A stretch of DNA of 64,000 nucleotides from Fibrobacter sp. (lineage in GTDB: Bacteria; Fibrobacterota; Chitinivibrionia; Chitinivibrionales; Chitinispirillaceae). The position numbers and the translations under genes are program-made. Within the stretch, counting starts at the first letter, position 1; every line of letters starts with the position of its first letter. Location of the stretch: NCBI GenBank assembly GCA_012728995.1, contig JAAYEB010000209.1, positions 1 to 64,000 on the forward strand. The letters are read 5' to 3'. The notes below the pieces were generated by a model that had not been told where the DNA came from, did no database searches, and saw only the letters and a program-made list of their open reading frames with translations. Below, one piece after another: positions 5,515-35,169 of the stretch.

Positions 5515-5780
5515 TTCCTGAATGGAAAAGATTAGTTTACAGCTTGTCCCGCAGTGCGGGAATGAACTGCCATTCGCATTGAACAGAAAAACTTTATGTC
5601 TGTAAAGGTCATAAGGTAATGGTGAATTATGAATTATGAATGGTGAATGAAGAAAAGAAACTACAATCGTTGTCGTTGTCGTAATCGTTATCCTATAACT
5701 GCATATTAAGCGTGTTGGTTCTGGTTCTTAACCAATATCCGCGAATCAGATTGCGTGAAGGGAATGTTACTGTTTAGGTG
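5515..5780 (+). repeat. Dispersed intergenic repeat, copy A
   Basis: The stretch matches the reverse complement of 33912-34152. Shared blocks in order: GATTA-TTTACAGC, a palindrome TCCCGCA-g-TGCGGGA, AAGGTCATA, a CGTTGTCGTTGTCGTAATCG tract, TTCTGGTTCTTAACCAATA followed by TCCGCGAA, then TGAAGG and GTTACT. Copy A carries about 40 extra bases with repeated GTGAATTATGAAT-like units between AAGGTCATA and the CGTTGT tract. No coding potential. It lies between the flavodoxin-like gene and the HDOD gene. Confidence 0.8.
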
Positions 5781-5800: not shown

Positions 5801-6703
5801 CTATCTGCTCTTGTTTTCTTCATGCAATAAAGACACAAATGTTTCGGAACTGTCAAATTCCAGCAGGAAATCTGTAAGCAGGTTTTCAATATCGGGTTCG
5901 TCAACAGGGATATTCTCTTTCTGAAATATTTCCCAGATTTCTGTTTGCAGTTGTGGTGGAAAGCTTCTTCCGGAATATGAAAAATCGGAAGAATGACACA
6001 GATAATCAGCCAAAGTTATTGTAGCAACAAACAGTTTCTCTTTTGGAGCATTCCATGGATTGTGATGATAAAGAATAGATTCTGAAATAATATCTGGTAA
6101 ATTCCATTTTTCGGCAAGCCAGGCACCGATTTGTGCATGCCCGGTACCAATAATTTCCATTTCCGAAACTTCAAAACTTTTACCTGATGATGCGGATTTA
6201 ATTATTTCAATAAACTCATCATGAAAATACTGGTTTAATATAACTTTCCCGATATCATGCAACAAACCTGCTACAAACGCTTCACCCGCATATCTGGTAC
6301 GATAATTTCGCGACAGCATTCTGGATGCGATACCACATGCAACAGAGTGCTCCCAAAACCTGGCTACATCAAAATTTTCTGTATCCTTTAAATTTTTAAA
6401 AGCATCAAATACCGACAAAGACAGCCCCATATCTTTTACAGTATTAAAACCCAAAACGACAATAGCCATATTAACAGTTGATATTTCTCTGGGGAAACCA
6501 TAATATGCAGAATTGGCCAGTTTTAATATTCTGGCTGTTAAAGCCTGGTCGGTAGAAATAAGTTTAGCCAATGAAGCAGCTGAAGTTTTGGGATTGTCAA
6601 TTAATTGAATCATCTTTGAAACAACAGTAGGGAGGGTCGGAAGACCAATAATACTCTCTGTTATTTTTTTTATCCTGAGCGGGTCTGCTTTTTTTTCTGC
6701 CAT
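5801..6703 (-). CDS. HDOD domain protein
   Basis: About 300 residues are almost entirely one HDOD domain: 'LPTLPTVVSKMIQLIDNP' at the N-terminus, 'ISTDQALTARILKLANSAYYG', and the HD-type core 'EAFVAGLLHDIGKVILNQYF' near residue 145. HDOD proteins are degenerate HD relatives that usually act in signalling, motility or cell-cycle control without a proven enzymatic activity; here the His-Asp pair of the HD motif is kept. The ATG at 6703 has AGGA 8 bases upstream, and a GTG two codons earlier is the alternative. It is the last gene of the flagellar run, 31 bases after the small basic protein, suggesting a motility-linked signalling role. Confidence 0.85.
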   Translation of the reverse strand: MAEKKADPLRIKKITESIIGLPTLPTVVSKMIQLIDNPKTSAASLAKLISTDQALTARILKLANSAYYGFPREISTVNMAIVVLGFNTVKDMGLSLSVFDAFKNLKDTENFDVARFWEHSVACGIASRMLSRNYRTRYAGEAFVAGLLHDIGKVILNQYFHDEFIEIIKSASSGKSFEVSEMEIIGTGHAQIGAWLAEKWNLPDIISESILYHHNPWNAPKEKLFVATITLADYLCHSSDFSYSGRSFPPQLQTEIWEIFQKENIPVDEPDIENLLTDFLLEFDSSETFVSLLHEENKSR

Positions 6704-6734
6704 TGTCACAATCCTGTAATTTATTATAACTTAA

Positions 6735-31325: not shown

Positions 31326-33761
31326 TCACTTATGTAGAAATATTGGAATGGATTGTACAGTCTTGTCGCCACTTATCCGTAAGACATATAGACCGTTTGA
31401 AACTGAATTCAAAGGTATACTTATGTTTTTTGATTTTTTTTCATAATTCCGCTTTAAAACGACTTTTCCAGAAAGTGTCGAAATTGTGCATATACCCTGT
31501 TCTTTTTGTAAAAGAGTTATTTCCAAACTGTTTCTGGTAATTCGGTGTTTCACCTTCGATTCGTTTTTATTAGGCCTGGCCAACCGTACTTTATTACCCT
31601 GCTCTTTATCCCAATCAACTATACCCTGAGCACTTACAGCGAGAACATACCAGGAATTGTGAGGCAGCCACTGCTCAATCCAGCGCCAGTTTTCCGTATT
31701 ACCATCATCATAAGGTTTCCATAATGGAAAATTCGTATCAAGTGTGTCACCGGTAATACCATTACAAATGCCTCCAGGTACATTCGGGAATGCATCTATT
31801 CCCGGATAATCGGGATAATTCAGTACACCTTTACCGTACATCATGCATACTCCAAACGGATTTTTCCCTAAAATCCAGTCCAGATTTGCAGAGGCAAGTG
31901 TAAGAATAGTATCCGAGAGGTTTACTCCAGCATTCCATGAAAGATATGCTGCAGCAGTAATTGATGAAAGTCTTGCATTTTCTCCCTGCCACCAGTACCC
32001 AGTTTCATTTTGATGTGGAATGAAAAAAGAGACATCAACCTGCTGGTTGTCTGTATTCCTGCGGCCGCCATATACTTCAAATTCATATATTGAAAAACCA
32101 TATTCTATTCCACGCTCTCTTCCCTGCATTTTGACAAATTGACAGCACACCGGTTCAAATGTGTGTACTTTTCTGCCAGGGCCTTCATTCTCTATACTTA
32201 CAACTGTTGTCCATGTTATATTGTCGTCTGAAATCTGTATATCATACTTTTTACCATAAGCAGCTTCCCAGTTAAGAACAACCGATGAAATCTCATACTG
32301 CTCTTCCAGATCTATAACTACCCACTCAGTATCAGAATATGGCTCACCACTTGCCCATCTTGTAGTAGCACTTCCGTCACACATATTTTCTGCCGGAAAA
32401 TCGTTTTGAATCTGAGAAACACTTACCGGTTTTTCTTTCGCAATGTTATTTTCACCACCCGAAAAAGAAAAAGGTGGCACATGGCTTAATCGTGGATAAT
32501 AAAACGGATTGGGTACTTCGAGAGCTCGTTCAATATAGCCATTTAAAACAGTTTTGATAGCTTCTTTTACATTTTTTTCATCTGCCGGAACCAGATCCAT
32601 ATATTCAAGTAAAGCAATAACCGGCAAACCTTCATCTGCTGCATGATAAAACGGTCGTTTGAAATCTTTATCACTCCAGAAAAATCCCTGACTGCTGACC
32701 ATTTGAAGTAATTCCTGGGCCCTGTCCGATGCATCATTTAAATAACTGGTTTCTGAAGTTGCTCGATACAGTTCTATTGATGCCAAAAGAGCACAGTAAT
32801 CATCAATAATATTCTCAACCCCGTCGTCACAGTACGAAATATTTTTCTCCAGCAGATGGGTATAGGCTTTTTGAGCAGAATTAAGGTATTCTGCAGACAA
32901 CTCACCACTTACATTGAGTCTTGCACATCTTGCCAGTGCAGCTATCGCAACCCCTCCGCCTTCACGAAATGCAGCCTGATAATCGGTACTTTTCACACCT
33001 GTTCTAAGGTTCACATCAGGTTCATCAGGATTATAATACCAGGTACATATTTCTCTTGTATCCCATCCCCATCGATCAAAAACATTTATATAGAAAAACC
33101 CTTCAGGATCAAGAACCCTGCACAGATAATCCGCCCCCCAGGCAGCTTCACTGATTATTTTTAATCTCATTTCACTTGAAATCTCGGGGTTCAAGTCAAG
33201 CGATTTTAAAAGTGACCAGACAACAAACGGAATTTGCTGAGGAGGAAAGAAATTGGAGTATGCAAGATGGGACAGGTATTTTCCCCGATCCCCGGTTGCA
33301 TCATTCCAGCCACCATTTACATTCCGATAAACATCCGCTGAACCGAACACTGGAACCTGTGAGTCATCATTAGTGTTACGCATTCCGGTAAAAAAAGTTA
33401 CCGCATCTTCATATGTTCTTGTCACGAGAATATTCGTATCAATTTCAAATGAAACAGACTGGGAATCCCCATAATGAAGCGAATAAATACCCGGAGCCCT
33501 GAACGAACTAAAGTCACAAACCAGAAATGGACCACCCCACCCACTGATATCAAGAGGCCCGCTGAGTTTTCCGGCAAAAACTACATTGTTTTCATTCAAG
33601 ATAAAAAATGAATCGGACGAAACAGTTTCATCAGACAGATCTAATACAGCATATTTTGGTCCCTCAAGATCATAACCGACCTGATTTACTCTAATAGCAG
33701 ATTTTGAAAATGTAGTAATCAGAACTAAAAATATTGAAAGGTAAATTAATCGTCTTTGCAT
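31326..33761 (-). CDS. Secreted glycoside hydrolase family 9 enzyme with nested discoidin domain and T9SS-like tail
   Basis: 811 aa. Signal peptide (1-20); CelD-N Ig-like domain ('IRVNQVGYDLEGPKYAVLDL', ~22-110); GH9 (alpha/alpha)6 domain from ~118 with the paired aspartates in 'GGWNDATGDRGKYLSH' (154-158). An F5/8-type C (discoidin, CBM32-like) domain at ~436-566 interrupts the GH9 fold. GH9 then resumes with 'ETGYWWQGENARLSS' (586-600) and 'NWRWIEQWLPHNSW' (691-704). The last ~75 residues end 'NGLYVLRISGDKTVQSIPIF', a type A T9SS sorting-like domain. The DATGD and WWQGEN signatures are those of the GH9 branch that includes bacterial cellulases and exo-glucosaminidase relatives, so a cellulose or chitosan oligomer substrate is possible. 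The ATG at 33761 has GGAG seven bases upstream. It appears to be a single-gene unit. Confidence 0.9.
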   Translation of the reverse strand: MQRRLIYLSIFLVLITTFSKSAIRVNQVGYDLEGPKYAVLDLSDETVSSDSFFILNENNVVFAGKLSGPLDISGWGGPFLVCDFSSFRAPGIYSLHYGDSQSVSFEIDTNILVTRTYEDAVTFFTGMRNTNDDSQVPVFGSADVYRNVNGGWNDATGDRGKYLSHLAYSNFFPPQQIPFVVWSLLKSLDLNPEISSEMRLKIISEAAWGADYLCRVLDPEGFFYINVFDRWGWDTREICTWYYNPDEPDVNLRTGVKSTDYQAAFREGGGVAIAALARCARLNVSGELSAEYLNSAQKAYTHLLEKNISYCDDGVENIIDDYCALLASIELYRATSETSYLNDASDRAQELLQMVSSQGFFWSDKDFKRPFYHAADEGLPVIALLEYMDLVPADEKNVKEAIKTVLNGYIERALEVPNPFYYPRLSHVPPFSFSGGENNIAKEKPVSVSQIQNDFPAENMCDGSATTRWASGEPYSDTEWVVIDLEEQYEISSVVLNWEAAYGKKYDIQISDDNITWTTVVSIENEGPGRKVHTFEPVCCQFVKMQGRERGIEYGFSIYEFEVYGGRRNTDNQQVDVSFFIPHQNETGYWWQGENARLSSITAAAYLSWNAGVNLSDTILTLASANLDWILGKNPFGVCMMYGKGVLNYPDYPGIDAFPNVPGGICNGITGDTLDTNFPLWKPYDDGNTENWRWIEQWLPHNSWYVLAVSAQGIVDWDKEQGNKVRLARPNKNESKVKHRITRNSLEITLLQKEQGICTISTLSGKVVLKRNYEKKSKNISIPLNSVSNGLYVLRISGDKTVQSIPIFLHK

Positions 33762-33911
33762 CAGTACTCCATTACACAAATTAACAGTTGTAATTTTAAA
33801 ATCATTTTCCGCATTAATTATTCTTGGTGTTAACTATTTTGAATCCGGTTCACATGGCTGCTGCACACAAAAAAGATCTCAGTTTTATTAAGTTAAGTAT
33901 AATGAATTTAA

Positions 33912-34152
33912 ACCTAATATAGTAACAATTCCTTCAAGCGATCTGCTTCGCGGATATTGGTTAAGAACCAGATCCAGAACGTTTAATATTCATTCGTGTA
34001 CGACTACGACAACGATTACGACAACGACAACGACAACGGTGAAAGATAGATATGACCTTCACAGCCATAAAAACCTTTCTGCAGTAGTGCCGCTGTGCAG
34101 CTCATTCCCGCACTGCGGGACAAGCTGTAAATTAATCGTCCGATTTAGGTAA
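33912..34152 (-). repeat. Dispersed intergenic repeat, copy B
   Basis: Reverse complement of copy A at 5515-5780. It begins just after the mnmA stop with CCTAAATCGG...GATTAATTTACAGC, then the TCCCGCA/TGCGGGA palindrome, a diverged middle, AAGGTCATA, a long CGTTGT tract, and the TTCTGGTTCTTAACCAATA block. Near its two outer ends are ACCTAA and TTAGGT, a possible imperfect terminal inverted repeat. No coding potential. The rest of the 33762-34155 gap (33762-33911) shows no gene. Confidence 0.8.
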
Positions 34153-34155
34153 CAC

Positions 34156-35169
34156 TTAAATTCTTTCTATAAGTCCACCTGCTAAAACTTTGTTTTCTTT
34201 ATATATTACAGCAGATTGCCCCGGTGCGACAGCCCTTACAGGTTCAGATAATTTAATTCTAAGTGCATTATCACTAATTTCATCAATATGACAATCTACT
34301 GGTTTGCTTTTATATCTTACCTGAACAGAATAAGTCTCAGATACAGTTATTTTTTCAAAGCCAAAAACCACATTTTTAACTACAATTGATCCGGAAAAAA
34401 GATCTTTGCTCTCTGCAACAATTATCGCGTTTTTTTCAGGACAGATCTCTTTTACAAACATCCTCCTGCCAAACGCTCCCAACCCCTTTCGCTGTCCGAT
34501 CGTGTAATTACAAATCCCACAATGTGTACCTAAAAGGTTTCCCTGGAGATCCATAATCGGACCACTGGCCTGATCACACGACCGATTCTCATTTACGAAT
34601 TCAGTATAACTCTTTTGCGATACAAAACAAATGTCCTGACTCTCCTCCTTTTGAGCATTAGAAAAACCGATCTTTGTTGCTATTTCCCTAACCTGCTGTT
34701 TTGTATATCTTCCCAGAGGAAAGATAACCCTGGCAATATTTTTTGAATAAAGAGGGTATAAAAAATATGACTGATCTTTTTTGGTATCAGTTCCACGAAA
34801 AAGCCCTCCATCACGTATTGATGCATAATGACCTGTTGCAAGATAGTCATAACCCATCGAAAAAGCTGATTCCAGAAGATATCCAAACTTTATGTGCATA
34901 TTACAACGTATACACGGATTTGGAGTCCTGCCCTGACAGTACTCCTGGATAAAATTATCAATAACAGCTTGTCGAAACAGAGAATTAACATCAACAACTT
35001 TATGCTCAATTTTGAGTGCTTCACAGATTCTGGCTGCGTCAGTAATTGCTTTTTCATTACTTCCAATTTTCATGGTAATCCCACAAACCATATAACCATC
35101 ATTACAGAGCAAGGCAGCAGCTACCGATGAATCAACTCCCCCACTCATTGCAACCAACACTTTTTTCAT
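34156..35169 (-). CDS. mnmA: tRNA-specific 2-thiouridylase MnmA
   Basis: 337 aa. PP-loop 'AMSGGVDSSVAAALL' at the start, 'GRTPNPCIRCNMHIKFG' with the first catalytic Cys (~85), 'EESQDICFVSQ' with the second (~183), and the tRNA-binding 'CNYTIGQRKGLGAFGRRMFV'. It adds sulfur to U34 of Lys, Glu and Gln tRNAs. The ATG is preceded by AGAGAGAG. Slightly shorter than E. coli MnmA but complete. Confidence 0.96.
   Translation of the reverse strand: MKKVLVAMSGGVDSSVAAALLCNDGYMVCGITMKIGSNEKAITDAARICEALKIEHKVVDVNSLFRQAVIDNFIQEYCQGRTPNPCIRCNMHIKFGYLLESAFSMGYDYLATGHYASIRDGGLFRGTDTKKDQSYFLYPLYSKNIARVIFPLGRYTKQQVREIATKIGFSNAQKEESQDICFVSQKSYTEFVNENRSCDQASGPIMDLQGNLLGTHCGICNYTIGQRKGLGAFGRRMFVKEICPEKNAIIVAESKDLFSGSIVVKNVVFGFEKITVSETYSVQVRYKSKPVDCHIDEISDNALRIKLSEPVRAVAPGQSAVIYKENKVLAGGLIERI

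Follow-up and report, generated by a model that had tools for sequence, protein, structure and literature searches.

The window, i.e. the whole analysed stretch of 64,000 nucleotides, harbours two copies of an intergenic repeat, copy A (5516-5779, + strand) and copy B (33912-34150, - strand), which are homologous over their full length in opposite orientation. Neither lies within a recognised gene: copy A starts a few bases past the stop codon of a gene for an HDOD-domain protein (5801-6709), and copy B a few bases past that of a tRNA thiouridylase-type gene (34156-35169). The region between them (about 7225-31000, - strand) is occupied by a flagellar cluster (sigma factor, FlhB, FliM, FlgE, FliK), and copy B is adjoined by a gene for a secreted multidomain GH9 cellulase with an F5/8 type C domain and a Por secretion tail (31326-33779, - strand). 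Local alignment of the two copies yielded a score of 129, with a maximum of 30 among 500 mononucleotide shuffles; many gaps were introduced, and the longest identical run spans 30 bp. Independently, a repeat finder reported inverted-repeat blocks of 72 nt (86 % identity), 41 nt (95 %) and 29 nt (93 %). The description in the earlier note of two non-coding stretches sharing an ordered series of blocks in inverted orientation, including TCCCGCAGTGCGGGA, a CGTTGT tract and TTCTTAACCAATATCCGCGAA, is thereby confirmed. Element limits were set by comparison with other copies (see below), resulting in the following features:

5516-5779, + strand: copy A, complete MITE of 264 bp, running from the left (AATT) end (5516) to the right (CCTT) end (5779)
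5516-5540, + strand: copy A, left terminal inverted repeat, degenerate, TCCTGAATGGAAAAGATTAGTTTAC; from the alignment of copies
5545-5561 (limits approximate), + strand: copy A, optional palindromic module TCCCGCAGTGCGGGA; module found in 19 of 26 aligned copies
5616-5664 (limits approximate), + strand: copy A, heptamer tract (RTGAATT/RTGAATG)n and A-rich stretch
5667-5692, + strand: copy A, hexamer tract CGTTGT/CGTAAT
5756-5779 (inner limit approximate), + strand: copy A, right terminal inverted repeat GTGAAGGGAATGTTACTGTTTAGGT; from the alignment
33912-34150, - strand: copy B, complete MITE of 239 bp, running from the left (AATT) end (34150) to the right (CCTT) end (33912)
34127-34150, - strand: copy B, left terminal inverted repeat ACCTAAATCGGACGATTAATTTAC; match to end profile R1 at C144:34126-34150, E=4e-5
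34107-34121, - strand: copy B, optional palindromic module TCCCGCAGTGCGGGA
33994-34039 (limits approximate), - strand: copy B, hexamer tract CGTTGT/CGTAAT/CGTAGT
33912-33936, - strand: copy B, right terminal inverted repeat TTGAAGGAATTGTTACTATATTAGGT

The motifs ACCTAA and TTAGGT, previously noticed near the outer ends of copy B, are exactly the ends of the element; copy A carries TCCTGAAT and TTTAGGT in their place. The flanks of copy A (AAT/GAT) have kept two of three bases of a target duplication, and those of copy B (GTT/TTA) are without intact duplication.

The earlier note had made its proposal of a repeat family depend on further copies being found by a whole-genome blastn search and on a significant alignment of the two window copies; both are clearly present. 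Searching the 4.97-Mb draft genome of the host with copy B retrieved 71 matching pieces, which were grouped by hand into about 40 loci, copy counts being those returned by the searches. The left end of the family reads ACCTRAAT(CGG or GGAG)ACGATTAATTTAC and the right end ...GTAAAGGAATCGT(CTG or TACT)ATTYAGGT, together forming a 24-bp imperfect terminal inverted repeat, ACCTRAAT-N3/4-ACGATT-NN-TTTAC. A degenerate pattern of these ends matched the host genome exactly at 32 positions vs 0 in the reversed control, and at 100 vs 6 with at most one mismatch. Overall, profile R1 of the ends detected 135 ends in the host genome, 20 and 13 in the related genomes G002 and G007, respectively, 6 in G017 and 0 to 3 in the other relatives. 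Elements measure about 98-390 bp, and the copies read have no coding capacity for a transposase. Four copies possess ACCA...TGGT in place of ACCT...AGGT, both ends having changed together, as a requirement for matching ends would predict. The 26 aligned copies are pairwise 68-90 % identical (median 79 %), so that none is a recent duplicate of another.

Insertion was studied on 24 deduplicated, well-defined elements, the ends of which had been chosen by their own sequence, blind to the flanks. Of these, 15 lie between exact 3-bp duplications (1.65 expected; 15 reached in 0 of 5000 shuffles), and duplications of 2, 4 or 5 bp are not enriched among the same 24 elements. Shifting the ends by 1-4 bp abolished the signal (rows before deduplication, 22 of 46 with duplication). 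After removal by script of the element and one target copy, none of 26 insertion sites was located within an ORF of 100 aa or more, whereas 70 % of positions drawn at random from these flanks were. Being short, dispersed and present in many copies, with terminal inverted repeats and fixed 3-bp duplications, the repeats are MITEs. The notion of a MITE-like family dispersed in the genome is borne out by fixed ends, inverted repeats, 3-bp target duplications, about 40 BLAST loci, 135 profile ends, and a related insertion sequence (IS) with the same ends, described below. The alternative designation as REP-like stands only insofar as the palindrome TCCCGCA/TGCGGGA exists and the family, like REP elements, is intergenic and present in many copies. 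REP elements are built on an obligatory palindromic unit, whereas here the palindrome is an optional module, absent from 7 of the 26 aligned copies, and inverted ends together with 3-bp duplications define the unit.

Between the ends, the elements are mosaics of exchangeable modules and two slippage tracts. Six two-state features were coded in the 26 aligned copies (left spacing type, right spacing type, palindrome, heptamer tract, middle variant and hairpin-loop variant), and all four combinations were found for 15 of 15 feature pairs; coding relied on text patterns and is approximate, most of all for the middle variant. Copies differ in their longest hexamer run (0 to 24 units) and in their number of heptamers (0 to 7). 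Other elements combine the same ends with unrelated interiors, e.g., C147:7369-7712 and a 130-bp element on contig C334.

A candidate for the mobilising element was reached by using an end of this type at a contig start of G017 as query; IS-sized end pairs among the first loci inspected included none that was convincing. The host genome contains a decayed IS of 1389 bp (L220, G000:C426:15053-16441) with inverted ends like those of the MITEs and an AAG/AAG duplication. Its broken reading frames encode a transposase of the IS1380 family (NCBIfam E=6.7e-15), which scores below the cut-off because it is broken. Both IS termini are the best matches to the terminal-repeat profile in the locus, one of them being weak (8.2 bits). 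An intact IS of 1738 bp, with ACCTAAATCGAACGATT at one end and an ATA/ATA duplication, resides in the genome G004 of a related genus (L238). Its intact transposase of 470 aa exceeds the IS1380 cut-off (NF033539; 209 vs 180 bits), matches PF13701 (E=1e-24) and is 67 % identical to that of the host IS. IS1380-type IS whose 17-24 bp ends and 3-bp duplications agree with those of the MITEs are present in two genera. G033 contains two further copies (44 % identical), the ends of which are related yet distinct and which lack a clear 3-bp duplication. A 149-bp element (L083) in G016, from another genus, matches the IS along about 119 bp, one end included, and an internally deleted IS of 860 bp is left in G008; both look like steps from IS to MITE. 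In the host genome, MITEs and IS share the terminal repeats only and no longer stretches, so parentage there is argued from the ends and the duplication length. Among 41 related genomes, only 4 yielded an IS1380-type transposase; G002 and G007, both rich in ends, were not among them.

We consider it likely, with good confidence, that the MITEs are mobilised in trans by the IS1380-type transposase of a larger IS with the same ends. This (DDE) transposase would recognise both MITE ends and insert the element with a 3-bp stagger, giving rise to the 3-bp target duplications. The first MITEs may go back to an IS1380-type element that suffered an internal deletion; loose recognition of ends and recombination between copies would then have replaced and shuffled the interiors, replication slippage would have lengthened the hexamer and heptamer tracts, and selection would have purged insertions inside genes, leaving intergenic survivors. 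Ends, duplications, copy number, intergenic sites, modular interiors and an IS matching the MITEs in its ends and duplication length were observed, whereas the interaction of transposase and MITE, this order of events and dormancy of the family are inferred. Dormancy is probable, the alternative being an active IS that is absent from the draft assembly; dormancy is suggested by the divergence of the copies and by the decay of the only assembled host IS.

A more far-reaching reading, tentative and held with distinctly less confidence, is that of a self-diversifying MITE. A transposase of the IS1380 type with relaxed end recognition would repeatedly make MITEs around arbitrary DNA, and recombination between copies would reshuffle ends, palindrome and the hexamer and heptamer modules, resulting in an open-ended range of interiors behind one type of end across several genera. 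It is motivated by the four combinations seen in all 15 feature pairs and by unrelated interiors sharing the same ends. The literature describes IS1380 elements as mobilising neighbouring DNA of variable length when a look-alike end is mistaken for their own (PMC9330008). If the relaxed-end reading were true, the family would constitute a natural record of an IS family, known for mobilising adjacent DNA, making new mobile units.

Unlikely is the derivation of the MITEs from another, unassembled IS family with similar ACC... ends (e.g., IS982 or IS5-type). Multi-copy IS are badly represented in draft assemblies, and in G017 and G010 ends of this type sit at contig starts and lack the body behind them, the pattern left by collapsed multi-copy IS; the G017 assembly does not contain the body of the multi-copy IS presumed there, and the interior visible in G010 may be that of a second kind of autonomous element (see below). 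Against this derivation, a search for the IS982 domain (PF13612) in 24 genomes, those of the host and of 23 relatives, found none, for which reason IS982, the first guess for the mobiliser, was rejected. PF01609 is represented by a single fragment at the end of contig C412 (L148, G000:C412:1-180), an unrelated DDE transposase without such terminal repeats, which was likewise discarded. The IS1380-type IS, by comparison, has the matching ends and duplications in two genera, and the G016 element appears directly derived from it. A link to genes for four-helix-bundle proteins of the 23S rRNA intervening-sequence protein family (IVP, PF05635) was also considered (four matches elsewhere in the host genome, L031-L034) and abandoned after inverted ends and duplications had become evident.

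Less probable still is selection on the interior as a genetic part (a structured RNA, a terminator or a regulatory element, for instance), with mobility being secondary. In its favour, copy B folds somewhat better than its shuffles (z = -2.5), conserved blocks are kept between variable tracts, and both window copies begin right after stop codons. However, the consensus fold of the aligned copies consists mostly of the terminal inverted repeats, which are paired at both ends, its covariation term amounts to only -0.49, hairpin pairs are in no clear excess over column shuffles, and an Rfam search of the window gave no match. Moreover, the palindrome and other modules are optional, and same-ended elements with unrelated interiors exist. 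Structure beyond terminal repeats and palindrome is weakly supported. That copies A and B serve as recombination sites inverting the 28-kb flagellar region, as also raised in the earlier note, agrees with their opposite orientation, their distance of 28 kb and the FlhB, FliM, FlgE and FliK genes between them, but is a theoretical possibility of negligible probability without backing beyond that orientation, given at most 30 identical bases in a row, the many gaps, dozens of equivalent copies elsewhere and no alternative arrangement seen.

Returning to mobilisation by an IS1380-type transposase, the family can be set beside known systems. Bacterial MITEs are shorter than 500 bp, carry terminal inverted repeats of 4-30 bp, show target duplications in younger copies and prefer intergenic AT-rich sites (reviewed in PMC10969869). 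RUP, CIR, ERIC, MITEAba12 and others resemble the present family in size, inverted repeats, duplications and intergenic preference (PMC10969869); judged from their descriptions, they differ in ends, interior and likely IS family. For the repeat-tract interior, BrickBuilt of Porphyromonas gingivalis appears to be the closest published analogue found; it, too, is a multi-copy MITE of intergenic regions, bounded by short inverted repeats and containing a tandem-repeat tract (PMC4596501). Compared by description, BrickBuilt is based on one 23-bp repeat unit, whereas the elements studied here have hexamer and heptamer tracts, other ends and a candidate IS. IS1380 members (IS1247, ISPme1, ISEcp1) and their transposable modules share with the candidate mobilising IS the transposase family; unlike them, the present MITEs encode nothing. 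The duplication also differs, 5 bp being listed for IS1247 (PMC3281130) vs 3 bp for AAG/AAG, ATA/ATA and the MITEs; as IS1247 is the single published member compared, 3 bp marks a variant rather than exclusion from IS1380 and points to a divergent branch of that family. No title or abstract describing IS1380-derived MITEs turned up in a non-exhaustive literature search combining the two terms. The repeats represent a new MITE family of a well-known kind, most likely driven by an IS1380-type IS with 3-bp duplication. A conspicuous repeat of a little-studied phylum is thereby explained, and a likely driving transposase named. In practice, such copies break draft assemblies and can pass for regulatory RNA.

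Several genera of Chitinispirillaceae carry ends of this type. Scanning a genome collection for the end pattern retrieved a Chitinispirillaceae MAG (JAFGIN010000161.1), a matching stretch of which is also present in G002, and one Pelagibacteraceae contig, the latter probably matching by chance; no match was obtained in viral contigs. Combined with the kinship labels from the genome search, this result puts the host in or near Chitinispirillaceae (Fibrobacterota).

Several unusual arrangements of the ends were additionally observed. Minimal elements comprise little beyond the two ends, namely 70 bp with a TAA/TAA duplication in G002 (L195:2508-2577) and 46 bp in G004 (L156:1501-1546). In G010, the end at a contig start (L184:1-175, contig C190) is accompanied by a possible reading frame, TFSQVVLVLMWGLIVKNKKD*, perhaps belonging to a second kind of autonomous element. 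Lone ends followed by a different simple repeat, GGGGTCGGAATCGGTATCGGAATCG and its complement, are located on contigs C153 and C411 of the host (L062, L076) and on contig C14 of G002 (L085), and thus in two genera.
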